In this document: piece by piece, positions 245-28,972 of the stretch
Layout of the letters: each line of letters begins with the position of its first letter
Position numbering within the stretch: position 1 is the stretch's first letter
Assembly: GCA_029262065.1 (NCBI GenBank)
Contig: JAJDAC010000047.1
Coordinates: forward strand, 1-39,009
Direction of reading: 5' to 3'
DNA length: 39,009 nt
Source of the DNA: Candidatus Krumholzibacteriota bacterium
GTDB lineage: Bacteria; Krumholzibacteriota; Krumholzibacteriia; JAJRXK01
Notes under the pieces: model-generated
Databases searched by the model: none
Told to the model about the DNA's origin: nothing
Seen by the model: the letters and a program-made list of their open reading frames with translations, nothing else
Position numbers and translations under genes: made by a program

Positions 245-267
245 CCGCGTAGCCAATTGGAGAAACA

Positions 268-299
268 GGGGTACCGGCCCAAAGCCGGTGCCCCTTTTC
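268..299 (+). terminator. Rho-independent terminator in the operon upstream region
   Basis: An 11-bp stem GGGGTACCGGC (268-278) pairs with GCCGGTGCCCC (284-294), with one T-G wobble and the loop CCAAA. It is followed by TTTTCTTT, which fits rightward termination; the other side lacks a T-run. It lies about 95 bases before the first operon ATG, so it either ends a short upstream RNA or attenuates the operon leader. Confidence 0.7.
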
Positions 300-392: not shown

Positions 393-2342
393 ATGAATAC
401 CCCGCGCGCGGTTTGCGCCTTATTTGCGCTTGTCGGCCCCCTGCTACTCGCTTCGGATGCACCCGGCGAGCGACGGATACCTACGGGACCGCCTCAGGTT
501 TCCGGCAAGAGCGTCGTGCTCGACCGGTCCACCACCATCGGTAACCTGGGCCTGCGACTCACCAACCTCGGCTGGTTCGGCAACCTGCTCAGCCAGACCG
601 TGTCGCAACCGTCGTGTGAATGGCCGCTGAACAGCAACGTCGAGCACATGTACCTGGGTGGCGTGTGGGTTGGTGGCATCAGCACCGAGGGTGAAGTCCT
701 GGTTTCCGCCGGAGCCGAGGACACGGGTTCGGGTCAGGCTTCACCAAAGCAGGAGTTTGGGCCACGCCTCACCGACACGGTTGTGTCGCTGAGCAGCAAT
801 CCGCTCAGTCCCAACTTTTCCACGCGCGCGCTCGCCGATCAGCACTTCGAAATGGTCTACGACGACTTCAACACGTCGGGTGGTGGTTCGCCGCAGGATC
901 CGCACATTCCCATGGGCGTCCGCGTCTACGCCACCGCGCTGGCCTATGCGCCTTCCTACGCCGACGATTTCGTGATTCTGCGTTTCGAAGTGGAGAACAT
1001 CAGCGGCCAGGAACTGACCGATGTATTCGTGGGTTTCTACGCCGAGCTGACCGTGGGCAACACCACGGTCACGATTCCCCAGGGAACACCCAGCTGGAAT
1101 TTCTACGACGACCTGAATGGTTTCGTGGGACCAGGCGAGTTGCCGGACGACCCCGACATCCGTCTGATGCACTGCCATGACAACGACGGTGAAGAAGGGA
1201 AGGCCGTATCGTGGGTCGGAGTCCGACTGCTGGGAACCGACGCTCCCGAAGAAATCTTCAGTTACCGACAGTGGCGCTTCGGCAGCATTCCCCGCTTCGA
1301 TGTCGACAAGTATGCCTACATGTCGTCGGGTCAGATCGATCAGGGGGTTGCCCAAGACGGCACGAACTTCGACGTCGCTGGCAACTGGATCTCCATGTTT
1401 GCCGCGGGCCCCTGGCCCACGTTGTTTCCCGACGACCGCGCCACCTTCACCATGGCCATTGTCGCCGGCCGTGACAGTACCGACATGGTGTTGAACAGCC
1501 AGATCGCGCAGTCCACGTTCGACCAGGGGTTCAAGTTGCCGGCGGGACCACCCAGTCCCGTGCTTGAGATATCCACCGTCGACAACGCGGTCATCCTCGA
1601 GTGGGACCCCGGAACCAACACCCTCGAAGGACAACAGTACGATCCCACGACCGCGTCGCCGGAGTTCCATCGGAGTGAGTTCACCAACGAGTACGATTTC
1701 CAGGGGTACCGCATCTATCGCATTCTGGGCGACACGATCGACGAAGATCCTTTTACGCAAGCTTCGCTGGTCGCCGAGTTCGACCGTACCGAGTGGCCCG
1801 ACGGACGACCCGACAATATCGGTTTCAATGTGGGCCTACCGCCCATGGAGAACGGGAAGCGTCGTTTCGTCGATCGCGGTGTGTTGAACGGTTTTTCGTA
1901 CTACTACGCCGTTACCAGCTACGCGTCGGCCAACCCGCGACTGGAACTCCCCATGCTGGAGAGCGGCTTCAACGAGAACGCCACGGTGGTTACTCCCGGA
2001 TCCGCTCCCGGTGGCGGTGGATCGACGGCAAGGGTGGGCGTGTATCCCAACCCGTACCGGGGATCCAGTCGTTTCGACGGCCGACTCCCCGGCGGCGAAC
2101 CCTCTGAACTGGGTCGCAACATCTACTTCACCAACGTGCCGCGGCGCGCGACCATCTCCATCTACAATCTCAGCGGTGCCCGCGTCGATTCCATCGAACG
2201 CGACGATGCCACCACCGGACAGGTCGCGTGGAACATGCTAAGCGAGAACACGCGGCCCATCGCATCGGGGCTATACGTGTTCGTGGTGGAAGATCTTGAG
2301 ACCGGTGAAACCCAACGCGGCAAACTGGTGATCCTGAAATGA
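393..2342 (+). CDS. Exported surface protein with C-terminal T9SS/FlgD-type sorting domain
   Basis: This 649-residue protein starts with a signal peptide (MNTPRAVCALFALVGPLLLA). I chose the ATG at 393 because an upstream in-frame start at 342 would put an unlikely extension before it. The body is rich in Asp, Gly and aromatic beta-strand patterns and I do not recognise a catalytic family. The last 95 or so residues are a FlgD/T9SS-like domain: VYPNPYRG near its start, ISIYNLSGARVDSI in the middle, SGLYVFVVED and the ending GKLVILK. In FCB bacteria such domains direct cargo through type IX secretion to the outer surface. It is the first gene of an operon; its TGA overlaps the next ATG (ATGA). 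Confidence 0.85.
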   Translation: MNTPRAVCALFALVGPLLLASDAPGERRIPTGPPQVSGKSVVLDRSTTIGNLGLRLTNLGWFGNLLSQTVSQPSCEWPLNSNVEHMYLGGVWVGGISTEGEVLVSAGAEDTGSGQASPKQEFGPRLTDTVVSLSSNPLSPNFSTRALADQHFEMVYDDFNTSGGGSPQDPHIPMGVRVYATALAYAPSYADDFVILRFEVENISGQELTDVFVGFYAELTVGNTTVTIPQGTPSWNFYDDLNGFVGPGELPDDPDIRLMHCHDNDGEEGKAVSWVGVRLLGTDAPEEIFSYRQWRFGSIPRFDVDKYAYMSSGQIDQGVAQDGTNFDVAGNWISMFAAGPWPTLFPDDRATFTMAIVAGRDSTDMVLNSQIAQSTFDQGFKLPAGPPSPVLEISTVDNAVILEWDPGTNTLEGQQYDPTTASPEFHRSEFTNEYDFQGYRIYRILGDTIDEDPFTQASLVAEFDRTEWPDGRPDNIGFNVGLPPMENGKRRFVDRGVLNGFSYYYAVTSYASANPRLELPMLESGFNENATVVTPGSAPGGGGSTARVGVYPNPYRGSSRFDGRLPGGEPSELGRNIYFTNVPRRATISIYNLSGARVDSIERDDATTGQVAWNMLSENTRPIASGLYVFVVEDLETGETQRGKLVILK

Positions 2343-3853
2343 GGCGCACACTGGGCCACCTGGTTGCCTGTGTGGGTGCGGCCATGGTGTTCGTCTCGTG
2401 CACGAACGACGCGTTCGATCCCGAAACCCTTCCCAACCAACCTCCCGTGGCCCGGGTCTGGGTGTCGGGGCCGGACATCCAACCCACCAGCTACAATGAT
2501 GCCACGTTCTACTGGTCGGGGACCGACATCGACGGAACCGTGGAAGGGTTCCACGTGTCCATCGCCGACCGCGGAATGGATCCCAGCACCTGGACGTACA
2601 CGGACAAGGACGAGAGTACAGCCACCTACTCCACCGATGACTCCGGCCAGGCCTTCGCCGTGCTCTACGTCGTGGCCCAGGACGATCGTGGCGCGCTGAG
2701 CGACACCGTTTCGGTGGACATTCCGTTGATCAACTCACCGCCGGTACTGGAATTCCGGGCCGACTTCGAACCTCTTCTCGAGAGTTTCGGAGCCGCTTCC
2801 TTCGATTTCTTTGGATTCGATCTCGACGGCAACGAGACCTTGCTGCCCTGGGTGGAGTATCGCTTCGAAGGAAGTGATCCCGACCTGGTGTTCGAGTTGG
2901 ACGATCCCCTGGCCCACCCCACGTTGGGTTGGGTACGCGAAGATCGCCCGCCAACCCGCTTCTCGTTGCAGCTTCGGGAAATCCCCCCCGGCGACCCTGG
3001 TGCCGCTTTTGCCCAAACCATATACGTGCGCATTGGCGACGTAGCCGGGTCGTTCAACGTACTGGAACACACGTGGACCGTATTCGAGGCTATCGGCAAG
3101 GTACTTCTGGTCGACGACTCGCTCACGGCCGTCACCCGCGACGCCTTCTATCGTGACGCGTTGGACGCCGCCCTGCCCGGCGCGCACAGCCGCTGGGATA
3201 TTGCCAACGGCCTGCCCCCCCGCGACGACGATCTACGACTCACGTTGGAGCAATTCGAACTGCTGGTGTGGTACACGGGAAATTCCGAGAGCCAGAACTT
3301 GCTGCGAGCCCAGGCCGTCTTGACCCAGTACCTGACCGATCGCGATCCCGGGACCGAGGGCGACCAACCCGGCCGCCTGTTGTTGGAAACCCCCGTCATC
3401 CTGGGAAATGGTTCATCGTTGTCACCGGCGTTCCGGGCGCGTTTCGGCATTGCCAACGAGCCCTTGCCGCGCAATCCGCTGGCAACCTATACCGGCGCGG
3501 TTGAGGCCGCCCTCGGTGATATCGATATCGCCAGCGAGGTGCCCGAGTTGCCACCTTTGGTTTCCGACGGAACCAACTACGAGGGTGGACCCGGACGCTA
3601 CTTCGGACTGTCCGGGCTGGACGTGGCCGCCGATGCGGCCGCCCTCTGGACGTTCGAGCCCTACGCATGGGGTGGCGACCGTGACTTTTCTTGCCGACCC
3701 GATTGCATGCCGGTAGTAGGCGTACGCCGCCCCGCCACGGGTCAGGCCAACACGGTGTTGCTGTCGTTCCAGTTGGAGTTCGCCAATGCCCTGGGCAATG
3801 CGCCGCAGGCAGTGGGCGCCATCATCACCGACATCCTGGGATTTGCACCATGA
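2339..3853 (+). CDS. Ig-like lipoprotein with possible GATase/flavodoxin-like domain
   Basis: This 504-residue protein has a lipoprotein signal ending VFVSC (Cys21). An Ig/fibronectin-like region follows (about 30-130: PPVARVWVSGPDIQP, FYWSGTDIDGTVEGFHVSI). Around residues 250-370 an alpha/beta pattern begins GKVLLVDDS and includes LLVWYTGNS; this resembles the inactive amidotransferase-like domains of envelope proteins in related phyla, and no Cys-His-Glu triad is evident. The ATG overlaps the upstream stop and the stop overlaps the next ATG, which suggests translational coupling on both sides. By position it could be a surface partner of the TonB receptor that follows; that role is inference. 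Confidence 0.8.
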   Translation: MRRTLGHLVACVGAAMVFVSCTNDAFDPETLPNQPPVARVWVSGPDIQPTSYNDATFYWSGTDIDGTVEGFHVSIADRGMDPSTWTYTDKDESTATYSTDDSGQAFAVLYVVAQDDRGALSDTVSVDIPLINSPPVLEFRADFEPLLESFGAASFDFFGFDLDGNETLLPWVEYRFEGSDPDLVFELDDPLAHPTLGWVREDRPPTRFSLQLREIPPGDPGAAFAQTIYVRIGDVAGSFNVLEHTWTVFEAIGKVLLVDDSLTAVTRDAFYRDALDAALPGAHSRWDIANGLPPRDDDLRLTLEQFELLVWYTGNSESQNLLRAQAVLTQYLTDRDPGTEGDQPGRLLLETPVILGNGSSLSPAFRARFGIANEPLPRNPLATYTGAVEAALGDIDIASEVPELPPLVSDGTNYEGGPGRYFGLSGLDVAADAAALWTFEPYAWGGDRDFSCRPDCMPVVGVRRPATGQANTVLLSFQLEFANALGNAPQAVGAIITDILGFAP

Positions 3854-6783
3854 TCGCGGGGAAGGGCACCATGCCAAGTCGCCATGCGATTTTCATCGGG
3901 CTGTTGCATTCGATGTTGGCCCTCTCATTGTTGAGCGCCGCGCCCCTCCTGGCCCAGGAAACGAACGGCGAATTTCTCGTACACCTGAAACCCGGTGAAG
4001 CGCGGAACGGAGCGCTGATCCTGGTCCAGGGCAAGATCATGGCGAAGGACCGCACGGTACCGCTGTCGTATACCAACGTATTCATCGAAGGTACCGGCAT
4101 TGGCACCATGGCTTCGGGTGACGGTCGCTTTTGGCTGCGCGGCCTGGCTCCGGGTACCTACACTCTCAAGGCCCAGTACATCAGCTACGAAGTGGGCGAG
4201 TACACATTCACCGTCGAACCGGGTGACCTGCTTCAGATAGAGTATTGGCTCGAACCGCGGGCCTGGCGGCTGGACACGTTCGAAGTCCAGGCTGAACGCG
4301 CCCTCCTGGACATTGCCGAGACCGGCACCGCCCGCCGCTTGTCTGCTCGCGAAATCGAGAACCTGCCGGTGGATGGCCTGGTGGAAATGGTGGCGCTGCA
4401 ACCCGGCGTGACCCTGGAAGACAACGAGATCCATGTGCGCGGTGGTCGTTCCGACGACACCTCGTTCGTGGTCGACGGTATCGGCGTGAAAGACCCGCTT
4501 TCGGCGGGCCGCTACGGCGTTGGCTTCAATGAAGACCTCATCAACGAAATAGAAGTGCTCACGGGGGGCTTCTCGGCCGAGTACGGGCAGGCCGTCAGCG
4601 GCGTCGTAAACGTCTCCACCAAGGAAGGCGGCGAGCGTTTCGAGGGCAAGATCAGCTACAAGAGCGATGATCTGGCGCCCGAGGCGAACTACTACAACAC
4701 CGACAACGTGCGCGCGACCTTCTCGGGTCCCAACCCCATATGGAAGGGCTTGAAGGCACTGGGCGTACCGCTTCCTGGCGAACAATATTTGATCGTCAGC
4801 GGAAGCTCGGACCTCACCGACACACACCTTCCCACCGCATCACTTACGAATGAGCTGCGGTCGCCGATTCTGGGCGAGTTCTGGTCACCGCGTGCCGACA
4901 ACCAGTGGAGCGGATTGGCCAAGCTCACGTGGAAGTTCGACCCCAGCAAGAAACTGAACTTCACCTACAGCAACCAGCAGGAAGTAAGCCTGGGGTACTC
5001 GCTCCCCAGTGAGGGTTTCCCACGCAAGTTCCAGGACATCCTGAACAACTACAACGTGTTCACCGCGCAGAACATCGTGGGGCAGGCCAACTGGAAACAC
5101 GTCCTGGGAGAAGAGAGCTACTACGAGATCAACGTGGGCCGACAATTCAACCGACTCCACAGCAACCGCAACGGCGTTGACGACTTCACCACCTACATAG
5201 GCCCCACGGAGAACGTCATCCGGCTGCAGTCGGAGGAAGAGTGCCCGCCGGTGGAAGAGGATCCTCTATGCGGCCCCAGCTACACCGCGGGAGCCCACAT
5301 CGGCGGCGATACCGATCGCTGGCACGATCACTACAGCGACTCATGGACGCTGAAGGCCGACTACGCCTTCTTGACGGGCCAGTTCAGTCAGTTCAAGACC
5401 GGCATCGAATACACGTACAGCGAAATGCAACTCATCGACCTGCAGCGCGAACTGGGCAGTCCCCCACCGGGATTCCTGGCCCGCAGCCAGGATGTCTTTC
5501 GCGTGCATCCGCAGACCGCGGCGGGATACCTGCAGGATCGGATCAGTTACAAGGGCCTGGTGCTCAACCTGGGCGCACGACTGGACGCGTGGGCGCCTGG
5601 CCGCGAGGTCGACGACGTCATGAGTCGACCCGAAGACTTCGTGTTCATATTCGACGACATGAAAACCAAGTACGAGGACGACACCTACTCGGTTCTGGGT
5701 CGTCGCTGGAAGGCCCGCATCAGTCCCCGCGTGGGCGTGAGCTTCCCCGTGTCCAAACGCGACAAATTCTTCTTCAATTACGGGCACTTCAATCAGTGGC
5801 CGCGATACAACTACGTGTACGCGCAGCTCGAGACCTCGTTTGCCACCGATCTCCAGCTTCTGGGTAACCCGAACCTGGACCCCAAGGCCACGGTCCAGTA
5901 CGAAACCGGCATCCAACACGAGTTCGACGGCCTTTGGAGCGCGGGGCTCACGTTCTACAGCAACGACATCTTCGGATACGCCCAGGCGGTAAGCCTCGAT
6001 ACCATCGTCATCGATCCGGTGGATACACCCGACCCCAATGATCAGGTGGCCGTGACCGCCGAGCCGGTACGGTATTTCAACGCCGACGCCGCCCGTTCCA
6101 TCGGCGTGGAATTCTCGATCATCAAACGCGCCACGCGGTGGTTGAACGGCAGCTTCAGTTTCGAATTCCAACGCACCACGGGCACCAACAGCTCGGCCAA
6201 CACCAACTTCCTCACGGCTCAACTGGGCCAGGCCAGCGAAGAGTTCGTTCGCGAGCAGAATATCCGGAACGTACCCCTGCTGTGGGATCGACCCTGGTCG
6301 GCCACCATGAACCTGGGATTCTCGGTGGGACCACGCGACCGGCCGAGCTTCTTCGGTTGGAAACTACCGCCTCGCTGGAGCGCCAACGTGTTGCTACGCG
6401 CGTGGTCGGGCGTGCGCTACACCGAAATGGAGTTCGGCGAAAACGGCAACCCGCAGACCAGCGCCAACATCAACCATAGGCTTGGCCCCTACCGTAGCGC
6501 CGTGGACATCAAGTTCAACAAGTACTGGGACCTTCCAAATCGCCACCGCGTCTCCATGTTCATCGAAGCCCGCAACGTGTTCGACCACGACAATTTCCGA
6601 CGCGTGAACCCCTGGACGGGTGACGGCTATCACCTGGGCAACTGGGACGGCGGAATTGCGGCTGACCGCAACAATGGCTCGCCGCGTTCGGTGCGCGACG
6701 TGAACTACCAAAGCGATTTCGTCGACCCCTCCTACCGCACCGACCCACGCATGTTCCTGACGGGGGTGAGCTACAAATGGTAA
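3850..6783 (+). CDS. TonB-dependent outer-membrane receptor with carboxypeptidase-regulatory-like N-domain
   Basis: The protein has about 977 residues: signal peptide ending LLAQ, a CarboxypepD-regulatory-like beta-sandwich (about 45-130: VQGKIMAKD, IEGTGIGTMASGDGRFWLRG), a plug domain (about 150-260: LPVDGLVEMVALQPGVTLEDN, VRGGRSDDTSFVVDGIG, INEIEVLTGGFSAEYGQAVSG) and a long aromatic-rich beta-barrel ending FLTGVSYKW. The terminal aromatic is typical of outer-membrane barrels. The start at 3850 overlaps the upstream stop (ATGA); the in-frame ATG at 3871 is an alternative preceded by a purine-rich stretch. Architecture matches SusC/OmpA-related receptors that import large ligands or serve as envelope scaffolds. 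The substrate is unknown and no classical SusD gene is adjacent. Confidence 0.93.
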   Translation: MIAGKGTMPSRHAIFIGLLHSMLALSLLSAAPLLAQETNGEFLVHLKPGEARNGALILVQGKIMAKDRTVPLSYTNVFIEGTGIGTMASGDGRFWLRGLAPGTYTLKAQYISYEVGEYTFTVEPGDLLQIEYWLEPRAWRLDTFEVQAERALLDIAETGTARRLSAREIENLPVDGLVEMVALQPGVTLEDNEIHVRGGRSDDTSFVVDGIGVKDPLSAGRYGVGFNEDLINEIEVLTGGFSAEYGQAVSGVVNVSTKEGGERFEGKISYKSDDLAPEANYYNTDNVRATFSGPNPIWKGLKALGVPLPGEQYLIVSGSSDLTDTHLPTASLTNELRSPILGEFWSPRADNQWSGLAKLTWKFDPSKKLNFTYSNQQEVSLGYSLPSEGFPRKFQDILNNYNVFTAQNIVGQANWKHVLGEESYYEINVGRQFNRLHSNRNGVDDFTTYIGPTENVIRLQSEEECPPVEEDPLCGPSYTAGAHIGGDTDRWHDHYSDSWTLKADYAFLTGQFSQFKTGIEYTYSEMQLIDLQRELGSPPPGFLARSQDVFRVHPQTAAGYLQDRISYKGLVLNLGARLDAWAPGREVDDVMSRPEDFVFIFDDMKTKYEDDTYSVLGRRWKARISPRVGVSFPVSKRDKFFFNYGHFNQWPRYNYVYAQLETSFATDLQLLGNPNLDPKATVQYETGIQHEFDGLWSAGLTFYSNDIFGYAQAVSLDTIVIDPVDTPDPNDQVAVTAEPVRYFNADAARSIGVEFSIIKRATRWLNGSFSFEFQRTTGTNSSANTNFLTAQLGQASEEFVREQNIRNVPLLWDRPWSATMNLGFSVGPRDRPSFFGWKLPPRWSANVLLRAWSGVRYTEMEFGENGNPQTSANINHRLGPYRSAVDIKFNKYWDLPNRHRVSMFIEARNVFDHDNFRRVNPWTGDGYHLGNWDGGIAADRNNGSPRSVRDVNYQSDFVDPSYRTDPRMFLTGVSYKW

Positions 6784-7760
6784 CCCGGCTCCTTGTCGCC
6801 GTGCTCGTGGCGTTGACCGTCAGTGCAACCGACGCACGGTCCCAACTCATCCAACTGTTCGGCGAGGAACGAGTAGGCTCCAGCGGCGGGCAATTCCTAC
6901 GCGTTCCAGTAGGTGCGCGTGAGATTGCCATGGGAGGCGGTATGGCCGCCACCGTGACCGGGGCCAGCTCACTGTTCTGGAATCCCGCGGCCATGAGCAG
7001 CGTGCGCCGAAGCGGACGGCTTTTCGTGAGTCACATGGAGTACACGGCCGACATCAACATCAACCACGTGGGCTACGTACGGCGCATGGGTTCTTGGCAA
7101 CTCGGGCTCAGCGGTGGTTTGCTTTCGAGCGGGGAAATCCTACGGACCACCGAGCTTCATCCCAACGGCGCGGGGTTCACGTTTACCGCCAACCAGTTCC
7201 TGTTGGGCCTTTCGCTGGGACGCCAACTGACCGACCGGTTCAGCTTCGCCGCCACCGGTAAGCTACTACAGGAAAACCTCGACGAGTTCGAGAACCGGGC
7301 CTTCATGGTCGATCTGGGAGCGCTGTACTACGTGGGTTTCCGCCGCGCTCGCATTGGCTTTGCGGTGCGCAACTTCGGCGGCGACCTTCGCCTGAACGGC
7401 TCCGCCCCCAGCACGGGCAGCCTTTCCAGCGAGTGGCAGTCATTCCCGGCGCCGACCGTCGCCGTGTTCGGCTTTGCCTACGACGTAGGCACGGCGGCAG
7501 CGCAACGGCTCACGCTCTCGCTCGACTTCAGTCATCCCAGCGACCAGGCCGAATCGTTGATCGTGGGCGGCGAACTGGGCATGTGGAACGCATTGTTCCT
7601 GCGGGGCGGCTATCGCAGCCAGGTGTCCGAGGGCGGCGTATCGCTGGGCTTTGGACTGCGCGTGCTTCAGCGTGCCTCCACGCTTCGCTTCGGCTACGCG
7701 TTTGACGACCGCGGAAATTTCGGTGGCATCCACGTGTTCAGCCTCGAGGTCGGCCAGTGA
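6777..7760 (+). CDS. PorV/PorQ-family outer-membrane beta-barrel protein
   Basis: This 327-residue protein starts with a signal peptide (MVTRLLVAVLVALTVSATDA). The family signature follows: GGQFLRVPVGAREIAMGGGMAATVTGASSLFWNPAAMS at about 37-75, then alternating barrel strands ending FGGIHVFSLEVGQ. PorV-like proteins are FadL-type barrels; in type IX secretion PorV receives CTD-bearing cargo and hands it to the attachment complex. Here it overlaps the TonB receptor stop (ATGGTAA) and shares an operon with a CTD-bearing protein, which supports a cargo-shuttle role, though that is inference. No other secretion core gene is in the window. Confidence 0.85.
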   Translation: MVTRLLVAVLVALTVSATDARSQLIQLFGEERVGSSGGQFLRVPVGAREIAMGGGMAATVTGASSLFWNPAAMSSVRRSGRLFVSHMEYTADININHVGYVRRMGSWQLGLSGGLLSSGEILRTTELHPNGAGFTFTANQFLLGLSLGRQLTDRFSFAATGKLLQENLDEFENRAFMVDLGALYYVGFRRARIGFAVRNFGGDLRLNGSAPSTGSLSSEWQSFPAPTVAVFGFAYDVGTAAAQRLTLSLDFSHPSDQAESLIVGGELGMWNALFLRGGYRSQVSEGGVSLGFGLRVLQRASTLRFGYAFDDRGNFGGIHVFSLEVGQ

Positions 7761-7780
7761 TCACAGGCGAGAGAGAGTCC

Positions 7781-8890
7781 ATGCGACCGTGGGCGGCCAC
7801 CGCGGGGCTCCTTCTGGGACTGACGCTGCTGACATCGGCATGCGGCGAGAAGATCACGCTGCCCGAGGCAGTGGGCATTCCCACCTCGAGCGAGTACCTG
7901 GAACAGCCCAGTTGGCAGCTCACCGATCCCACCGATGTCATGGAAGCCGACGGGCGTATCTTCGTCACCGAAGGTGAACCGGGAACCATCAACCGATACT
8001 CGACGTCCCAGGAGCTACAATCCAGCGAGAGTGGATTGGTAAACCCGGTGGCCATGGGGCTTCACCGCGATTCGCGTACGATCCTGGTGGCCGAAGCGGG
8101 CGATGCCGGCACGACTCCGCGCATCTCGTTCTTCAGCCAGGCGGATCTGGCGCCGCTGGGCAACCTCGACCTGGACGGCATTGCGATGAGCGTCGCCGGA
8201 ATCGCGGTGGATCTGGCGGTGTTGTACGTAAGCGACCCCGATTCGGGTGTGGTGCACCGCTTTGCCTTCAACGGTGTGGATCGTACGATCGAGACACGCG
8301 GTCTGGTCTGCAACAACCAGGGCAGTGTCGAGAGCCCCCAGTTCGTGTTCCAACCCGAGGGTCTGGCCCTGACGCCGGAAGGAAGATTGCTGGTGTGTGA
8401 CGCGGACTCCACCCGCAATTGGGTGCTCCAGTTCGACCCCAGTCCGCCCATGGGCGACGACAGCGGTTTTGGCCAGGCCGTCCCCTTTCGCGAATCGGGA
8501 TGCGCCAATCCGCCGGTAGACACCTTCGTTTTGGGCGCGGCCCCCGGATGCGGACAGCCCTTCGTGGAGGGCCCGAGTAGCGCACCCGGTGGACTCTCAG
8601 CCCCCTCGGGCATTGCGTTCGACACTGATGGACGGATGTACGTCGCCGATCGCGGCAACGATCGAGCCCAACGCTTCGACACAAGCGGACAATTCAACCT
8701 GTTGTTTGGCGACGGCGCCGGCGGTGTGGCTCCGCTGGGCTCGCCGCGCCGTATTGCTACCTGGCTGGGAAGCACTTCCCGTGACGGAATCCCCATTATC
8801 ATTCCGGGCGCACGGGTCTACGTGGTGGACGAAGCCGCCGCCCAGCTACGAATTTTCGAAGACAAACGCTGGACCGATTTCCAAAGCTGA
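7781..8890 (+). CDS. NHL-type beta-propeller lipoprotein
   Basis: This 369-residue protein starts at the ATG at 7781, preceded by a purine-rich GGCGAGAGAGAG. A GTG at 7757 overlapping the previous stop is possible but would give an odd N-terminus. The lipoprotein signal is MRPWAATAGLLLGLTLLTSAC, with Cys21 as the lipidated residue. The rest shows NHL/SMP-30-like propeller blades: PTDVMEADGRIFVTEGEPGTI, AGIAVDLAVLYVSDPDSGVV, PEGLALTPEGRLLVCDADS, PSGIAFDTDGRMYVADRGNDRAQRF. Propellers of this kind usually bind proteins or sugars. It sits in the coupled operon just after the PorV-like gene and is probably an accessory lipoprotein of the same envelope complex. Confidence 0.85.
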   Translation: MRPWAATAGLLLGLTLLTSACGEKITLPEAVGIPTSSEYLEQPSWQLTDPTDVMEADGRIFVTEGEPGTINRYSTSQELQSSESGLVNPVAMGLHRDSRTILVAEAGDAGTTPRISFFSQADLAPLGNLDLDGIAMSVAGIAVDLAVLYVSDPDSGVVHRFAFNGVDRTIETRGLVCNNQGSVESPQFVFQPEGLALTPEGRLLVCDADSTRNWVLQFDPSPPMGDDSGFGQAVPFRESGCANPPVDTFVLGAAPGCGQPFVEGPSSAPGGLSAPSGIAFDTDGRMYVADRGNDRAQRFDTSGQFNLLFGDGAGGVAPLGSPRRIATWLGSTSRDGIPIIIPGARVYVVDEAAAQLRIFEDKRWTDFQS

Positions 8891-8913
8891 CCATTCCCTC
8901 GAAAGGACCTCCC

Positions 8914-9516
8914 ATGCGCACGATGCAACTGGCCGGCACGCTGATTTGTTCCCTGAGCCTGCTCGCCGTTTGCGCAGCCCCCCCCACGCTCGCGCAGGAT
9001 GAAAAGGATCGTACCCAGACGCGGCCGGCCAAGGTCATGGTCGAGGTACCCGTGGAGATCGTCGAGGTAGACGACGGAGACACGGTGCGGCTGCACTGGG
9101 CCTCCGAAGAGGCCGAGATCATTCGTATTCTGGGCATCGACACGCCCGAAACGCAGCACGTGGAGCACAACATTCCGTATGACCAGTCGTTTGGTCGTGA
9201 AGCCGCGGGCTTCGCCAAGGGCGCGTTCTCCACGGCCACCTCGGTGCAGTTGATCCGCGCCGACATGACCGACCCCTACGGCCGAACCCTGGGCTACCTG
9301 TACGTGAACGGAAAGAACTACTCGGTGCTGGTGGTATCGCACCGGCTCGCGGTCGAGTCGGTCAGTCACTACGGCGACAACGGACTACCCGAGGCCGCGA
9401 AGGAAGTACTCGACGCGGCGGCAACGGCCGGTCCGGTACCGTTCGAAGCTCCCTACAAGTTTCGTGGGCGCATGCGCGACGTTTCGCAACACATGCGCGA
9501 GGGCGGAACCGAGTAG
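8914..9516 (+). CDS. Secreted staphylococcal-nuclease-like (thermonuclease) protein
   Basis: This 200-residue protein has a signal peptide ending TLAQ and an AAAGGA ribosome site before its ATG. The SNase fold is clear: VDDGDTVRL (Asp54 for the calcium ligand), RILGIDTPE (Arg71, Asp76, Thr77, Glu79, matching Arg35, Asp40, Thr41, Glu43 of staphylococcal nuclease) and DPYGRTLGYLYVNG (Arg124, matching Arg87). All catalytic and calcium positions are kept, so it should be an active calcium-dependent phosphodiesterase cutting DNA or RNA outside the cytoplasm. It follows the propeller lipoprotein by 23 bases and is probably the last gene of the operon. Confidence 0.88.
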   Translation: MRTMQLAGTLICSLSLLAVCAAPPTLAQDEKDRTQTRPAKVMVEVPVEIVEVDDGDTVRLHWASEEAEIIRILGIDTPETQHVEHNIPYDQSFGREAAGFAKGAFSTATSVQLIRADMTDPYGRTLGYLYVNGKNYSVLVVSHRLAVESVSHYGDNGLPEAAKEVLDAAATAGPVPFEAPYKFRGRMRDVSQHMREGGTE

Positions 9517-9527
9517 CCCGACTTCAG

Positions 9528-10214
9528 CTAGAATACCAGCCCGGCCGAAATCGTCGCGCCCCAGGCGTGAGTGGTGCGGCCGGGAATGAGATCGCTCTCG
9601 GGATCCCAGCGCCAGTGCACACTTCGAAGCTCGCCGCTGAGTTCGAGGAATCGCCAGGTTCCGGTCATGCCCACCGAGGCCTCCAGCGCCTTGTCCGAAT
9701 CGGCGAACGCCACCGGAGGCTGATCGGGAATTCCCCTCAGAGCCTCGTCGGGCGACAGCAGAACCCATCCGAAACCAACCCGCGCGGTGGGCACAAACTG
9801 CCACACCTTCCAACGGTTGATCCGGAATCCCATCGTAATCATGTCAATCCGCACGCTCACCGGCGGCAGGATGACCGGCGCGGGAGCATCGGGGTCTTCG
9901 ACCAGTGCGCTGCCGCCAACATCGACCTGGGTCCTGGAATCGGCATGCAGCCGTGACCAGACGACCTCGAAGCTGGGATGGGGCCGCAACCCCAACCGGA
10001 AGCCCTTCATGGGTTCGTCCCTCAGCCGCAGAGCCACGGCCACGGGTGCGTTTTCGCGCGGATCGAAGCCAAGGTAATTGGCAAGGTCACCCATGCGAAA
10101 CGCACCGACCTCGACCCCACCGATCACGCGAACGCGTTCGGCTCGGCTCGGAACCACACTCACCAGGAGCAGTGCGGCAACCAGCAAACCCTGCCGTATC
10201 TTGTTTTCCACCAT
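9528..10214 (-). CDS. Predicted outer-membrane beta-barrel protein, unknown function
   Basis: The protein has 228 residues with a signal peptide (MVENKIRQGLLVAALLLVSVVPSRA). The mature part alternates hydrophobic and polar residues as in small barrels, and ends GATISAGLVF with a terminal Phe, the usual C-terminal signal for outer-membrane assembly. The stretch VRVIGGVEVGAFRMGDLANYLGFD resembles the first strands of OmpA-like or porin-like barrels, but I cannot name a family. It is convergent with the nuclease gene, with 11 bases between the two stops. Confidence 0.75.
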   Translation of the reverse strand: MVENKIRQGLLVAALLLVSVVPSRAERVRVIGGVEVGAFRMGDLANYLGFDPRENAPVAVALRLRDEPMKGFRLGLRPHPSFEVVWSRLHADSRTQVDVGGSALVEDPDAPAPVILPPVSVRIDMITMGFRINRWKVWQFVPTARVGFGWVLLSPDEALRGIPDQPPVAFADSDKALEASVGMTGTWRFLELSGELRSVHWRWDPESDLIPGRTTHAWGATISAGLVF

Positions 10215-10277
10215 TGGCTTGGACTGGTCCCCGTGACATGGTACAGGCGAAGCGAAGAGTTAGGCTAGCACGCGCAC

Positions 10278-10486
10278 CCAGCCCGGACAACGCTGGAGAA
10301 AACGGCACTTTTCTTGTGACTTTGGAGCCCGTAACTGGTCCTGGGTGCTGAACGGCGGGATGAATACCGCCGCACTATTTGCCCCCGCGAAGCGGGATAC
10401 AGATCCCGGTAGGAGCGCCCGATCCGCAAGGTTCGGCTACCGGTGAGGCCGCGGTCGGGGCAATAGTCCTGACCGCGGTTTTTTTT
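10278..10486 (+). ncRNA. Candidate structured RNA or riboswitch-like leader
   Basis: No gene is supported in 10215-10600, but the rightward strand has a series of stems: CCAGC/GCTGG (278-282 with 292-296 after 10000), CGGCGG/CCGCCG (10353-10358 with 10367-10372), CCCGC/GCGGG (10384-10388 with 10392-10396), CGGGAT/ATCCCG (10393-10398 with 10403-10408), CCGGTAG/CTACCGG (10406-10412 with 10437-10443), then a terminator. The CGGGAT stem shares bases with both neighbours, so two alternative folds exist, as in switches. It may be a free small RNA or the leader of the lipoprotein gene at 10601. No known riboswitch consensus was recognised. Confidence 0.35.
10449..10486 (+). terminator. Strong intrinsic terminator without an upstream coding gene
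   Basis: A perfect 8-bp stem CCGCGGTC (10449-10456) / GACCGCGG (10471-10478) with a 14-base loop is followed by eight T residues (10479-10486). It ends rightward transcription. The nearest upstream gene is on the other strand, so it must end a short non-coding transcript or attenuate transcription into the gene at 10601. Confidence 0.85.
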
Positions 10487-10600
10487 GCCCGAAACGTCCC
10501 AACCCAAGATGGCACTGAACTTGATTGCGTCCCCATTGGATTCGAGCCATCTACGGCTCCATTTCAGCATGCCGCGAGGGCATAACCAGGAGGACGCCTA

Positions 10601-10954
10601 GTGGATCGCAGGAACTTTCTAGCTCGCATGGGCCAGGTCGCGGCCTTTTCATCCATGGCCATCGTGGTTGCCGCGTGCGGCGAAGACGAAACCGTAGCCC
10701 CCACCCCGTCCACCAGCATCGACGGCAACGTGAGCAACGTGGCTGGTCACACCCACACCGTCGAGGTAACCCAGGCGCAGTTGAACGCTGGCGGTACGCT
10801 ATTCTTGACCATGCAGGGCGGCGGAGACCACATACACAGTGTGGAACTTAACCCCACGCAGGTATCCCAACTGGCGGGCGGTTCGTCGGTCACGGTTACC
10901 TCCGAGAACGGCGGAAACCCAGGGCATTCGCATTCGGTGACGTTCACGCCCTAG
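10601..10954 (+). CDS. Small Tat-type lipoprotein with three HxH motifs
   Basis: This 117-residue protein starts at GTG, eight bases after a strong AGGAGG. The N-terminus MDRRNFLARMGQ has a twin-arginine RRNFL signal, followed by a hydrophobic stretch and a lipobox VVAAC (Cys26). The mature part contains three related repeats: GHTHTVEVT (His50, His52), DHIHSVELN (His77, His79) and GHSHSVTFTP (His109, His111). Paired histidines on beta-strands suggest a metal site (copper or zinc), and Tat export would suit a protein folding with its metal inside the cell. No enzyme family is recognised. The next gene, convergent, is a ZIP-like metal permease, which fits metal handling. Confidence 0.82.
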   Translation: MDRRNFLARMGQVAAFSSMAIVVAACGEDETVAPTPSTSIDGNVSNVAGHTHTVEVTQAQLNAGGTLFLTMQGGGDHIHSVELNPTQVSQLAGGSSVTVTSENGGNPGHSHSVTFTP

Positions 10955-11001
10955 GAACCCGGGTCCCGTTGCACGCGAAGCGCTAGACCGGCGCAGCCTG
11001 C

Positions 11002-12369
11002 CTATTCGAACAACTTGAATGCGGTGGCCGCGAGAAAACCAACGAGGGTGGCCAACCCCACGCGTGAGCCGGACCCGCCAAGGTGTACGGCCTCGGGGAT
11101 CATGGTCGAAGCAATGGCCGTGAGCATGGCGCCCGCGGCCATTCCTTCTATACCCACGAAGGCGACGTGGGGTACGGCCTCACCGATGGCGAATCCAATC
11201 CCGGCACCGATCGCTGTCATGATGAACAATCCAAGCCACATGGAAACGATGCGCATGTTGCCCCAGCCCTGGTCTTTCATGGCCAGTGAACTGGAGAGCG
11301 CCTCGGGGAAGTTCGACAGGAACAGTCCGGCGATCAGCGTGTACGGAATGACCTGCGCGAACTGAAGCGGCTCGGTCGCGTCCTGGTGCCCAGCCACGAC
11401 GGCCAGCAACCCCGACCCGATGACGAGACTCTCGGGAATCCCGTCGATCGTCAGGCCCAACCAAACGGCCAGCCCCGCGCCGCCGTGCTTTTCCGACAGA
11501 TCGCGCATCAACTGGGGCGTGGGCGGTTGTGCACCCACGCGCAGCGCCGCCAACGCCTCCATGCCCCATCGCTGCTCTTCTTCGCCGCGTTCACGATCAC
11601 GTTCACGGATTTCTTCAAGCCGTTCCTGTGCGAGGGCTCGAAACCGCTGATCGAATTCGGGGCTCTTGGCCCGCCACCGTTCGAAATGTTCGCGTGGCAA
11701 CCGATAGGCCTCGACAATACCGTTCGCCGTGGCGGTCGCTGATCTTGGCAATCCACTTATCAACGGCAGTTCGCCCAGGATCCCTCCAACCCCCAGGGAT
11801 CGCAGCAGAGTACCCGATCGATTCAGGTCAACACTTCCGCTCAACACGAAGTAGCAGCTGTCCGGCGTATCGCCCTCGGCGTAGAGTTGATGACCGTCGG
11901 CGAAGACGACAGTTTCCACCCCGACCACGAACTCACTGACTTCGTCGGCGGGCAAGGAACGAATCAGCGGAATCGCACAGATGTTCTTGACCATGGTCGC
12001 CCGGCGAGCTCGCTCGCTACGCGCCACGTGGTTGAGCGTGGTGGATACCTTTCTCAGGAATGCGCCACGCTCATCCAATACACGGTCCAGCACGACGAAC
12101 AGGAATCCGCCGGCTAGAGCGCCCGCGAGAAAAACGTAGAAGGCGCGCACGGCTCCGTGCTCGCCCGAGGTAAGGGCTTCGGCGTTGGGAGCAACCAGGT
12201 CGAGGGTAAGGGCGGCAATGAGTGCGCCAGCCCCAAAGGCGCCGAGCGAGGCTGCGACACTAGCCCGGGGGCGAGTCCAAAGACCTATTACCGAACCCAG
12301 CGGCAAGGATGCCGCGCTCAGGGCGCCCAGGGCAACAGCCCAGAGCACGGTTACATTCTCGGAAGCCAT
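11002..12369 (-). CDS. ZIP-like metal permease with inserted cyclic-nucleotide-binding domain
   Basis: The protein has 455 residues. Three membrane segments (about 8-30, 37-60, 75-97) come before a soluble insert, and about five follow (300-325, 338-365, 374-397, 402-425, 434-453). The helices carry ZIP-like motifs: TIDGIPES (307-314), SNFPEA (352-357) and STMIPEA (421-427), the latter resembling the metal-site helices of ZIP transporters. The insert (about 129-240) is a cNMP-binding fold: YAEGDTPDSCYFVLSGSVDL and the phosphate cassette GELPLISGLPRSATATA with Glu200 and Arg209 in the expected places. A charged coiled linker (243-268) joins it to helix 4. Metal transport gated by cAMP or cGMP is a plausible but untested inference. 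Confidence 0.85.
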   Translation of the reverse strand: MASENVTVLWAVALGALSAASLPLGSVIGLWTRPRASVAASLGAFGAGALIAALTLDLVAPNAEALTSGEHGAVRAFYVFLAGALAGGFLFVVLDRVLDERGAFLRKVSTTLNHVARSERARRATMVKNICAIPLIRSLPADEVSEFVVGVETVVFADGHQLYAEGDTPDSCYFVLSGSVDLNRSGTLLRSLGVGGILGELPLISGLPRSATATANGIVEAYRLPREHFERWRAKSPEFDQRFRALAQERLEEIRERDRERGEEEQRWGMEALAALRVGAQPPTPQLMRDLSEKHGGAGLAVWLGLTIDGIPESLVIGSGLLAVVAGHQDATEPLQFAQVIPYTLIAGLFLSNFPEALSSSLAMKDQGWGNMRIVSMWLGLFIMTAIGAGIGFAIGEAVPHVAFVGIEGMAAGAMLTAIASTMIPEAVHLGGSGSRVGLATLVGFLAATAFKLFE

Positions 12370-12420
12370 ACTCGCCGGCCTTTCGGAATCGTGTCCCGAT
12401 CGACCTAATCACAGGTCCAA

Positions 12421-14736
12421 CTATTTCGCCAGAACCATTGGACGACTCGACCGGTGACGGCCGCCGTCGGACCCCGTCCAGTCCAGAACCAGTCGGTATA
12501 CCCCCGAGGCCTGCTTTTCACCGCTCCACGTTACGTGTTGCTCGCCAGCTTCCTGCCACGCATCCATGAGCTGGGCCACCTGGCGACCACGTGCGTCATG
12601 AACCACCAGACGAACGTGGCCGGCACGGGCGAGGTCGAACTGGATGTTCGTACGAGGGTTGAATGGGTTGGGATGATTCGGCCGCAAGCGGGCCGGTGCA
12701 ATGGCGTTCGGCAACGGCGCCGCGACCGGCACATCAAGCGGAGTCTTCAACACGAAACCGTCCGGTGGCGAGCTCAGGCTTCCTTGCAGCGGATTCTGGT
12801 TGGTTACGTCCTCTCCCGGAAACGACGACGAACTGGTGCGGCCGGTGATGTACGATGCGCCCGCGGCGTCCACATCGATGGCGTTGCCCACGTCACTGGA
12901 CAACCCGCCGTAGAACGTTTCGAAGTCCCAGAATGCGCCGCTGGCAATGACCTGGACGAAGAAGATGTCCTGGCCGTCCACCCCTACCACGTTGGCTCGC
13001 CCTTGGCGATCCACGGCCACGCCGTTGCCCTGGCGACCGCCCAGAATGAGCGAGTAGAGCACCGCGGTTGCGTCGGAATTGAGCTTGGTGAGCGGCGCGA
13101 CCGCGTTCGCTGGCGATGGTCCGTTGGTCACCGGATAATCGGTGGAAACGGTAGATCCCGTCACGTACACGTTGCCGTCGGAATCCAGGTCTACCCCGTA
13201 GGCGAAGTCGTCGTCATTTCCGCCGAAATAGGTGCACCAGGTCAGACCGCCCGTGGAGTCCAACTTGTAGAGAAACATGTCTTCCACGTTGCCCTTCACC
13301 GGCTGCACCACGCCCGCCGTGGTCGGAAGGTTGGCATCCCCAGTGAACCCCACAATGTGACTGTTGCCCAGGTAGTCCACGGCTACGCCCCACACGAACA
13401 CGAACGGGTCACCGCCAAGGAACGTAGCGTAGCGAAGACTCGCCCCGTCGGCGTTGATGCCAAGGGCGAAAGGGCCCGGGCCAGCAATGGGAAGCGCGTT
13501 GAACGTGGGAAAGTTGGCCGACTGCGTCGTGCCAGCCACGTAGGCATTGCCACCGGAGTCCACACCGATGTCGGGCCGCTCCTGCTCGCTGTCGGCCCGT
13601 TCCAGCTGGTCGCCGCCATAGTAGGTGGAGTACACCAGGTCCGAACCCGCGGCGTTGAGTTTCAACACGAACAGGTCGGTATCCCCACCGTAAACAGGCT
13701 GAATGGCGCCGACCAACGGAAAGCTCTCGTCCGGAATGGTGAGAACGTCATCGACCGAGTCGGTGGTTCCTACTACGTAGGCGTTGCCCTGGGCGTCGAT
13801 GTCGATCCCGTAGCCCACGTCCCGGCCACCACCGCTGATGTAGGTGGAGTAGATGACACTCGAACCCGTGGGATCGAGCTTGGTAACGAACACATCACTG
13901 GGGTCAGAGAATCCACCCACTCGCCCGACTTCGTCGTAGGCGCCGGTGCTCGTGACAAAATTGGTGGAGCTGGTACTACCCGTTACGTATGCGTGGCCCT
14001 GAGCGTCGACGACAATGTCAAAACCCTCGTCCGTTCCGTTGCCACCCAGATACGTGCAATACTCGACCATGGGGTCGATGATCAGCTCACGCGTTGGGTC
14101 GTACTCTCCCAGCTCGAAACCAAAGCTCCCGTCCTCATTCCTCACGTAGTTCGATTCGACCAAGCGCCTCTTACCAGCCACGAGCTGGTAGCTGATGGGA
14201 TGATGAAAGCGCAGGAGTCCGCCAGGCGTTTCGATCGACAGCGCGCCCTGATCCACGTGCGCGGCGTGCGACAGGGCAATCGTAATCGATTCGGGGTCGG
14301 AACCAGGAGCCGCAACGAAATCAAACTCAAGTACACCCTGCCGACCGTAGTAAACGAGATCGATGCCGGGGTACACCTGTTGGTATCGAACGTTGGACAG
14401 ATGGGCCACGTTGCGAATCCAGTGCTCGGGGTTCGAGCCCCGCAGATAGTGGCTCACTCCCTCTGTGCCAACACCGCTGGAAGCAGCCCGTGCGTTGGCG
14501 CCAAGCAGAGACATGCGCAGCGAAGTTGGGTACCCGGCCGCGGCCCCGCGCGTGGTCAGGGCAAGTGCGTCGGGTCGCAGTAGGGCGGTGAAGCCGCGAC
14601 CATGGGAAACGAATTCCACGCCGTCGGGCACCTGCCCCAGATTGGCTTCGAAATGCAGGTTGGGCTTGGCGATCGCCGACGGAGGGAGAAGAAGAGCGAG
14701 AACGAAGACGGCTGGCACCAGTGAGTTTGTTTTCAC
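12421..14736 (-). CDS. SBBP beta-propeller surface protein with C-terminal sorting domain
   Basis: The protein has 771 residues. I chose the GTG at 14736, preceded by GGAG seven or so bases away, because it begins a clean signal peptide (MKTNSLVPAVFVLALLLPPSAIA); the longer frame upstream lacks one. An N-terminal domain (about 25-230, FEANLGQVPDGVEFVSHGRG) of the type found before SBBP repeats is followed by about seven SBBP blades with the pattern YSTYxGG...GNAYVxGTT. The C-terminal domain begins HPNPFNPRTNIQF, includes VVHDARGRQVAQL and ASGVYRLVL, and ends MVLAK. It should be exported and held at the surface; its ligand is unknown. It probably has its own promoter. Confidence 0.88.
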   Translation of the reverse strand: MKTNSLVPAVFVLALLLPPSAIAKPNLHFEANLGQVPDGVEFVSHGRGFTALLRPDALALTTRGAAAGYPTSLRMSLLGANARAASSGVGTEGVSHYLRGSNPEHWIRNVAHLSNVRYQQVYPGIDLVYYGRQGVLEFDFVAAPGSDPESITIALSHAAHVDQGALSIETPGGLLRFHHPISYQLVAGKRRLVESNYVRNEDGSFGFELGEYDPTRELIIDPMVEYCTYLGGNGTDEGFDIVVDAQGHAYVTGSTSSTNFVTSTGAYDEVGRVGGFSDPSDVFVTKLDPTGSSVIYSTYISGGGRDVGYGIDIDAQGNAYVVGTTDSVDDVLTIPDESFPLVGAIQPVYGGDTDLFVLKLNAAGSDLVYSTYYGGDQLERADSEQERPDIGVDSGGNAYVAGTTQSANFPTFNALPIAGPGPFALGINADGASLRYATFLGGDPFVFVWGVAVDYLGNSHIVGFTGDANLPTTAGVVQPVKGNVEDMFLYKLDSTGGLTWCTYFGGNDDDFAYGVDLDSDGNVYVTGSTVSTDYPVTNGPSPANAVAPLTKLNSDATAVLYSLILGGRQGNGVAVDRQGRANVVGVDGQDIFFVQVIASGAFWDFETFYGGLSSDVGNAIDVDAAGASYITGRTSSSSFPGEDVTNQNPLQGSLSSPPDGFVLKTPLDVPVAAPLPNAIAPARLRPNHPNPFNPRTNIQFDLARAGHVRLVVHDARGRQVAQLMDAWQEAGEQHVTWSGEKQASGVYRLVLDWTGSDGGRHRSSRPMVLAK

Positions 14737-14974
14737 GCCGGACTCCAGAGTTGGAGGTAGACACAGAGCGCTTGTGCACCGGCTTATAGGATAACACAGT
14801 CTAGATATTGACTTTTGTCTACTCTCATTCGGCTCCCATTCCGAAGAAAACCTCCACTTCCCTGTGATCGGGTCACACCCAGGGCTGTCCAACGACCTAG
14901 AAGCAGACTGGTCTCCGACTCGCAGCCCGCAGATCAACGCACCAGAGCCCTAGGCTCCCGACTGGAGAAATTTC

Positions 14975-16393
14975 ATGAGAACTGCCATTTGTTTCCTGAG
15001 TGTATTGTTCTGCACCGCACTGAGTGTGCCGGCCGCGCTGGCCGGCGGCTACGAGATCCTCTACGACACACGTTCGGGCTCGGGTTGGTACGGCGGCGAC
15101 GATCGCGCCGGAATCTCGCCACGGGACATCGGCGGCGGGCAGAGCGTGCTCGTGGAAGCCGATATCGTGCTGAACAGCTTCTCGTTCTTCTTCGCAACGC
15201 GGTTCGATTTCGCAGAGAATCCGGACAACGCGGGACATGAGGTTACGCTGACGCTGAACGTACGCAACCAGAGTGGGACCACCCTGAGAACGGTGGACCT
15301 CACCCTACCGAACACCTACAGCGGGGGTTGGGCCACCTGGACGGGAATCGACCTTGCGGTGGACGCCGGCACCACCCTCATCTTCACTTCGTACCTGAAC
15401 GGGGCGTACGATACGCTTCAGGTCTACAACTCCCATGCGAGTGACACGGCGTCGGGTTACGCCAACGGTACGCGCTATACGAAGAGTGGCACGGGCGACG
15501 CCGACATGGAGCAATGGAGTGGTTGGAACCCCCATTCGTGGGACGCGATGTTCTGGCTGCAGGGAACCACCGTGGGCCCGGACCTGGAGATCGTCTCGTT
15601 CACCGCTCCCGCCACCGCCGAGCCCGAAGCTGGCATTGGTGGCCAGATCATGCTGCGCGTGAGGAACGCAGGTAGTACAGACATCACTACGCCGGTCAGC
15701 GCGGGGTTCTACGTTTCCAGTGACGCCACCATCACGACCAGCGATCAACTGCTGCTGGGCGGACGCGAGAGTATCGCCAGCCTGGTCGCCGGTGCGGAAG
15801 TCGACGTACCCCTGTTTACCGGGGCGCGGATCCCTGCCAGTTGGCCACTGGGAGATGCCTTCCTGGGAGTAGTGCTCGACGAATCCAATCTGGTGGCCGA
15901 ATCCAACGAGACCAACAACACCGCGTCCTCGGCCGTGCTCGTGAGTGCGCCGCAACCGGATCTGGAGATCGTGTCGTTCAGCGCACCCAACAACGCCGTG
16001 CCCGGCACTGCAATCGGCGGTCAGATTCTCCTGCGCATTCGCAATCGCGGAACGCAGGACATCACCGAATCCATCGGTGTGGGCTTCTACGTTTCGACCG
16101 ATGACGTCATCACGACGGCCGACCAACTGCTGGTTGGCGGCCGCGAGGGCGCGGGCACTCTGGCCGCCGGTGCGGAAGTAGATGTCGAGCTCTTCGCCGG
16201 CGCGTCGATTCCGGCCGACTTTCCGCTGGAACCGGCTTTCCTGGGGGTGATTGTCGATGAGTTCGACAACATCGACGAAAGCGACGAAGGCAACAACACC
16301 GCCGTATCGGCCGTCAACGTGGTGGCGGTGCCCGTTCCGTCCGAGTCGTGGGGCACGCTCAAGAGCATGTACGGCAGTGGCAGAACGCAATAA
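14975..16393 (+). CDS. Secreted protein with two CARDB domains
   Basis: This 472-residue protein starts with a signal peptide (MRTAICFLSVLFCTALSVPAALA) and has GGAG eight bases before the ATG. An N-terminal beta domain (about 24-200, GGYEILYDTRSGSGWYGGDD) is of unknown function. Two similar CARDB repeats follow (about 203-325 and 327-448), each beginning PDLEIVSF and with GGQI[ML]LR[VI]RN, FYVS[ST]D and an ESNET/ESDEGNN ending; they fold like cell-adhesion Ig domains. Instead of the PNPFNP-type domain seen in its neighbours it ends with a short PSESWGTLKSMYGSGRTQ tail. It is probably exported and adhesive or scaffolding. Confidence 0.87.
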   Translation: MRTAICFLSVLFCTALSVPAALAGGYEILYDTRSGSGWYGGDDRAGISPRDIGGGQSVLVEADIVLNSFSFFFATRFDFAENPDNAGHEVTLTLNVRNQSGTTLRTVDLTLPNTYSGGWATWTGIDLAVDAGTTLIFTSYLNGAYDTLQVYNSHASDTASGYANGTRYTKSGTGDADMEQWSGWNPHSWDAMFWLQGTTVGPDLEIVSFTAPATAEPEAGIGGQIMLRVRNAGSTDITTPVSAGFYVSSDATITTSDQLLLGGRESIASLVAGAEVDVPLFTGARIPASWPLGDAFLGVVLDESNLVAESNETNNTASSAVLVSAPQPDLEIVSFSAPNNAVPGTAIGGQILLRIRNRGTQDITESIGVGFYVSTDDVITTADQLLVGGREGAGTLAAGAEVDVELFAGASIPADFPLEPAFLGVIVDEFDNIDESDEGNNTAVSAVNVVAVPVPSESWGTLKSMYGSGRTQ

Positions 16394-28814: not shown

Positions 28815-28972
28815 CGCGGGAACCCACTACGGAGCCCTGACACTCACTTGGAGACGCCCCGGCAAGACCGCAATTGTGGGGGAAGCATACATGAGAACCC
28901 CGATCCCCCGCTCGGTCACCTTGGTGCGGTAGAATCCCGGGGCCACGAGGGTTACGCCGAAAGGCTTGGGTC

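Follow-up and report, generated by a model that had tools for sequence, protein, structure and literature searches.

Research on T9SS has centred on Bacteroidota. Barrels of the PorV/PorQ family act as shuttles or anchors of T9SS proteins in the literature examined. In Porphyromonas gingivalis, PorQ anchors PorZ, and the C-terminal domain (CTD) of PorZ is left uncleaved (PMC8545088, PMC5562754, PMC10202324). Type B cargo is kept by cognate PorP-like barrels (PMC9143113, PMC12618676), and a review has put forward the hypothesis that cognate PorV-like barrels may shield CTDs from sortase (PMC10202324). The literature searched, which covers few subscription papers and preprints, held no description of the five-gene arrangement considered here, where a PorV/PorQ-family barrel is encoded between a TonB-dependent receptor and a propeller lipoprotein, downstream of a CTD protein.

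Gene layout and products of the operon

The arrangement lies in a window of 39,009 nucleotides, which is one whole contig of a Candidatus Krumholzibacteriota assembly (5.77 Mb in 59 contigs). The original prediction, made from the sequence alone, placed six genes at 393-9516 with overlaps at 2339, 3850 and 6777, and all six ORFs and the three overlaps are indeed present (Table 1). A fourth junction had been described as close, at 7781; that position is an in-frame ATG in P0005, and the GTG start at 7757 gives an overlap of 4 nt. The junctions from P0001 through P0005 overlap by 4, 4, 7, and 4 nt in turn, and P0006 starts 23 nt past the end of P0005.

Table 1. Coordinates of the operon and of features next to it (positions in the window).
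Feature	Position	Strand	Description
Terminator-like hairpin	267..295	+	12 pairs, T-rich tail; upstream of operon
P0001	393..2342	+	Signal peptide, beta-supersandwich (~36-384), Fn3-like region, T9SS-type C-terminal domain (~546-649)
P0001 C-terminal domain	2028..2339	+	CTD class of TonB-PorV modules, by module-tail profile
P0002	2339..3853	+	Lipoprotein; two Ig-like domains, ThuA/GATase-like domain (residues 250-504)
P0003	3850..6783	+	TonB-dependent receptor: N-terminal CarboxypepD, TonB-box-like DTFEVQAER, plug, barrel with terminal Trp
P0004	6777..7760	+	PorV/PorQ-family outer-membrane barrel
P0005	7757..8890	+	Lipoprotein with NHL-type beta-propeller repeats; GTG start
P0006	8914..9516	+	Secreted SNase-family nuclease; neighbour, outside conserved unit

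Around the operon, matches to terminator-like hairpins are no commoner than in shuffled sequence. The intergenic stretch before it (145-244) has two identical 49-nt direct repeats, whose starts are 51 nt apart. Elsewhere in the window, four more proteins have ordinary T9SS/FlgD-type tails (12421-14937 and 26197-28077, both on the minus strand; 17958-21200, plus; 32537-33685, minus), one of them with a beta-glucanase-like domain. By eye, large serine/threonine kinase-like proteins with repeat regions are encoded at 28191-31264 and 33756-36086, the former adjoined by a sigma-factor-like gene.

The receptor, barrel, and propeller lipoprotein of the original prediction are all recognized by curated models. 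In P0003, the plug (PF07715, 37.9 bits against a cut-off of 23.9) identifies a TonB-dependent receptor, the barrel matches OMP_b-brl_3 (45.6 against 27), and the CarboxypepD domain is also over its Pfam cut-off. P0004 is a member of the PorV/PorQ family (NF033709, 170.6 against 90). P0005 is an NHL-repeat propeller protein (PF01436, 43 against 20) with a CGEKI-like motif, and its Cys29 is invariant.

Comparing the sequences of the two upstream proteins with solved structures brought no useful match for either, and a Pfam scan of P0002 had no match. In P0002, predicted as an Ig lipoprotein, the lipoprotein Cys21 is invariant in alignment A4. Its model (pLDDT 88.4, pTM 0.81) has the two Ig-like domains expected and a C-terminal domain that had been missed, which resembles ThuA/glutamine-amidotransferase structures (Z 14). 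That domain lacks the catalytic Cys of class I glutamine amidotransferases: none of the ten alignment rows inspected has a Cys in the stretch that corresponds to the nucleophile position, as placed by the fold match. In the model of P0001 (pLDDT 82.7, pTM 0.70), the N-terminal beta-supersandwich resembles the N-domains of glucoamylase (GH15), GH94, and GH116 enzymes (Z 15-20). The modelled folds of P0001 and P0002 are compatible with carbohydrate binding, a fold match alone proving no function.

The nuclease had been proposed as a released product or ligand processor of the assembly. P0006 has an SNase domain over the cut-off, but it was rejected as a member of the unit and that role was given up, since tblastn found no match to it in 34 relative or paralogue loci and it is thus a neighbour that is not conserved with the operon.

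Conservation of gene order and overlaps

P0003 orthologues were sought in 58 related genomes that sample eight families of the class. Three families (f1, f4, and f5) and a single f2 genome gave such orthologues, and the remaining families have only a paralogue that matches over a shorter length. Around the f1 and f5 matches, the five genes stand in the order P0001-P0002-P0003-P0004-P0005 with 30-66% identity, in f5 throughout the family. The f4 and f2 loci still have receptor and barrel side by side, mostly with the CTD gene nearby. The exception in f1 is G001, where ~11 kb containing other genes separates the P0001 orthologue from the rest of the operon, within one contig.

The scan was widened to one genome per species, and the best 80 of 222 relatives gave 80 loci. 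With profiles made from the Krumholzibacteriia alignments, the same five families were found clustered in loci, among these best 80, from KSB1, Calditrichota (Calditrichaeota), Neomarinimicrobiota, and LCP-89, the phylum names being approximate since they are submitters' titles on uncultured assemblies. Several loci with other phylum titles group by identity with Krumholzibacteriia. In the other phyla, again among the best 80, 22 loci have the same relative order and three are rotated (TonB-PorV-NHL-CTD-LipIg), with identities in the five families of ~20-37%. The NHL matches at distant loci are weak with our own profile (23-81 bits), and the four distant NHL proteins that were checked all pass the Pfam cut-off for NHL repeats. 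The original prediction had depended on the gene order extending beyond the source genome, as it does in f1, in all of f5, and in other phyla. Ligand hints were also sought in the conserved chromosomal neighbours; none was found, and by eye the neighbours look housekeeping.

The overlaps are conserved along with the order. When the in-frame downstream start nearest to a 4-nt overlap was taken at each junction, a method that favours starts near -4 and in which, by our own rough estimate, the frame would fit by chance in about 1 of 6 cases, the Krumholzibacteriia junctions were at -4 in 24/24 loci for P0001/P0002 (CTD>LipIg), at -4 in 25/25 for P0002/P0003 (LipIg>TonB), at -7 or -4 in 30/30 for P0003/P0004 (TonB>PorV), and at -4 or -1 in 26/26 for P0004/P0005 (PorV>NHL). 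In distant loci, the last three junctions are mostly <100 nt. Relatives with 30-66% identity repeat both the gene order and the overlaps, which is more than chance would give, and from the conserved overlaps equal production of its products appears plausible. The genes could instead be loosely associated surface genes that are co-inherited under a common regulation of outer-membrane proteins, their products forming no complex. The displaced CTD gene of G001 and the rotated order in three loci are what such an association would allow, but every readable junction within the five genes in Krumholzibacteriia is an overlap and the same families are retained across phyla at the low identities given above. 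We consider this explanation quite unlikely.

Many distant loci have an extra gene of ~850-1030 codons between the P0001 and P0002 orthologues. Its product has an ordinary T9SS tail together with OB-fold or DUF5689 regions, and partly matches an extracellular nuclease model, over the N-terminal portion of that model. The operons of KSB1, Calditrichota, Neomarinimicrobiota, and LCP-89 usually have such a second, OB-fold T9SS cargo inserted. In one relative's operon (L169), an alkaline phosphatase gene (3110-4288) lies between two T9SS cargo genes.

Secretion genes, the barrel and the tail of P0001

The source genome has T9SS core genes. SprA is present as several stretches (507.7 bits with neighbouring stretches), and SprA matches were found in 58/58 genomes. 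PorU is at C14:86247-89684 (490 bits), with a PorV-family gene directly downstream at 89902. The GldM model had no match in the source genome, but its control likewise had no match anywhere. TonB_C has seven matches in the source genome. SusD_RagB has none in the whole genome, with a control match in Bacteroides; the partner by which a SusCD system is defined is therefore not detected, in agreement with the original prediction of an assembly without SusD and distinct from classical SusCD.

In Myxococcus, the TonB-dependent receptor Oar is required for PopC secretion and the TonB box is needed (PMC6434023). P0003, with its N-terminal CarboxypepD extension and TonB-box-like motif, could likewise secrete or display a protein, the lipoproteins and barrel assisting. 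However, importers such as SusC share this architecture (PMC6434023), so sequence alone cannot separate export of the Oar kind from import. Here, moreover, the cargo comes with its own T9SS-type tail and a barrel of the shuttle type, in a genome that encodes SprA; an exporting P0003 appears improbable to us.

P0004 is well below both equivalog cut-offs of its family, scoring 92.3 bits against 220 for PorQ (NF033711) and 48 against 250 for PorV (NF033710). For the PorU-linked copy (G000:C14:89902), the PorV model gives 115 bits and the PorQ model 55, and since even this copy reaches only 115, the NF033710 cut-off may be unsuited to the phylum. In a tree of 81 barrels, those of all five-gene modules are on one side of a branch (support 92, not starred); the opposite side holds the PorU-linked copies together with the barrels from smaller paralogous modules. 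Judged by scores and tree, P0004 is a separate paralogue of the PorU-linked PorV, nearer to PorQ than to PorV.

PorV-family matches number 2 to 17 per genome. The source genome also has two smaller paralogous modules (L058 and L059; G000:C12 and C38), which consist of a TonB receptor, a PorV-family barrel, and a protein of the same CTD class as P0001. At L202 (G000:C14:19000-38900; 2389-16316), the gene for a 2288-aa protein whose tail is T9SS-like is followed by a PorV-family gene and then, after one other gene, by a run resembling ExbB, ExbD, ExbD, and TonB. At L200 (G000:C46:162000-181900; 6096-10618), the gene for a 1158-aa relative of inactivated M6 metalloproteases directly precedes another PorV-family gene.

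The description of P0001 as a CTD cargo protein is correct in that its tail is of the T9SS/FlgD type, but the tail is below curated cut-offs. With TIGR04183 it scores 18.6 bits, not the >23 of type A T9SS cargo, and only 5/49 P0001 orthologues match that model at E 0.01. No match to the type B model (TIGR04131), which is possibly absent from the library, was returned for the 49 orthologues at E 0.01, and no PorP match was returned either. The commonest curated match is the PorZ C-terminal domain (40/49 orthologues). PorZ itself (NF052228) is defined by a full-length match with two propellers at >260 bits, and P0001 matches the C-terminal part only, with 16.6 bits. This model also matches many ordinary tails in the source genome and is thus not specific; with 64 genome places matching it, a specifically PorZ-type tail by curated model was dropped.

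We therefore turn to our own tail profiles, one made from P0001-family tails and a generic one from the tails of the inserted cargo, both run on T9SS-tail proteins of the source genome and relatives. The P0001 tail scores 113 bits with the module-tail profile and 26 with the generic one. Tails of TonB-PorV modules, including those of the C12 and C38 paralogous modules and of other families' modules outside the profile building, score 56-129 and 12-27, respectively. The other tails of the source genome, that of PorU included, give nothing or <25 with the module profile and mostly 40-98 with the generic one. The one intermediate is a C46 protein (47 bits module, 36 generic), which sets the maximum of the module-tail profile for other T9SS tails. 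On these profile scores, the tail class of P0001 is distinct from ordinary CTDs.

The class extends beyond the modules. Alignment A8 found 82 places with a module-type tail in 23 genomes, and the surroundings of 60 regions with 62 proteins were taken, omitting the twelve strongest and ten that were weakest or already known. A PorV paralogue directly adjoins 24 of the 62 proteins, with a TonB receptor as well in 21 of these 24. The other 38 have neither a PorV nor a TonB neighbour in the stretch taken, some stretches being short, and the tail alone therefore does not define a module.

Barrel and tail together raise the possibility of a complex with an accessory or attachment role in T9SS, comparable to PorU-PorV-PorQ-PorZ, which would process, glycosylate, or anchor other T9SS cargo, the TonB receptor giving energy or a cofactor and taking up no nutrient. 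The PorQ-like barrel fits this, as do the tail, for which PorZ is the nearest curated model, and the presence of a beta-propeller protein, PorZ itself being one (PMC8545088); in other phyla, a second, ordinary-tail T9SS cargo is found inside the operon. However, PorU and its PorV are encoded elsewhere, the propeller lies on a lipoprotein of its own that has no CTD, and the five-gene-type receptor occurs in 4/8 families sampled whereas SprA is in all 58 genomes. We regard such an accessory complex as unlikely.

A proposed surface complex and its place among known systems

The reading we prefer, with confidence about evenly balanced, is a five-gene TonB-dependent surface complex in which P0001, exported by T9SS and uncleaved, is held on a dedicated PorQ-like barrel. 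The five products would form one assembly at the outer membrane. P0001 would be exported through SprA, and its CTD, not being cut by PorU, would remain bound to P0004, in the way that PorQ retains PorZ and PorP/SprF retains type B cargo. Retained P0001 and the lipoproteins P0002 and P0005 would make up the extracellular ligand-binding part above P0003, which would use TonB to import the ligand, probably glycan-containing, to the periplasm. The T9SS-anchored P0001 would then be in the role of the lipidated SusD in SusCD. Retention of P0001 on P0004 in the service of P0003 is proposed by analogy with PorQ-PorZ and type B cargo, and the weakest steps of the mechanism are physical association and transport direction. 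As far as it could be tested, the surface assembly of the original prediction, other than SusCD, is supported by the conserved order and by the genome having no detectable SusD.

More tentatively, and with our judgment falling just short of balance, several FCB-group phyla may have a second route to a TonB-dependent surface receptor, with a ligand-binder that T9SS exports by way of a distinct CTD class and that stays uncleaved on a dedicated PorQ-type barrel belonging to the receptor complex. If so, a conserved operon that combines a TonB receptor with a PorV/PorQ barrel and its distinct class of CTD would tie protein secretion to nutrient uptake, and it would help to explain the numbers of PorV-family matches per genome in uncultured phyla. 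The operon also makes it testable whether cognate PorV-like barrels shield CTDs from sortase, as hypothesized (PMC10202324).

Each of the known systems shares part of the arrangement. In SusCD and kindred TonB-dependent uptake complexes of Bacteroidota, a CarboxypepD-extended TonB receptor, surface lipoproteins, and tight gene coupling are found as in the module. However, the module's genome has no detectable SusD, the exposed partner is T9SS-tailed, and a PorQ-like barrel is in the unit. In PorQ-PorZ of P. gingivalis, which gives the closest curated matches, a PorV/PorQ-family barrel also stands beside a CTD protein, but the module scores far under the equivalog cut-offs, a TonB receptor is linked, and the propeller is a separate lipoprotein. 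In Oar of Myxococcus xanthus, the TonB receptor is N-extended and has a possible role with a surface protein, as in the module; unlike Oar, which is reported in PopC export, the module is in a genome with T9SS genes and CTD cargo. In the type B CTD/PorP-SprF system of Flavobacterium johnsoniae, a distinct CTD class is linked to a dedicated barrel, as it is here, and both have additional unlinked cargo of the same class, the 38 module-tail proteins without PorV or TonB neighbours resembling the orphan type B cargo of F. johnsoniae (PMC12618676). The module differs from the type B system in that its barrel is of the PorV/PorQ family, its CTD belongs to another class, and the unit includes a TonB receptor.
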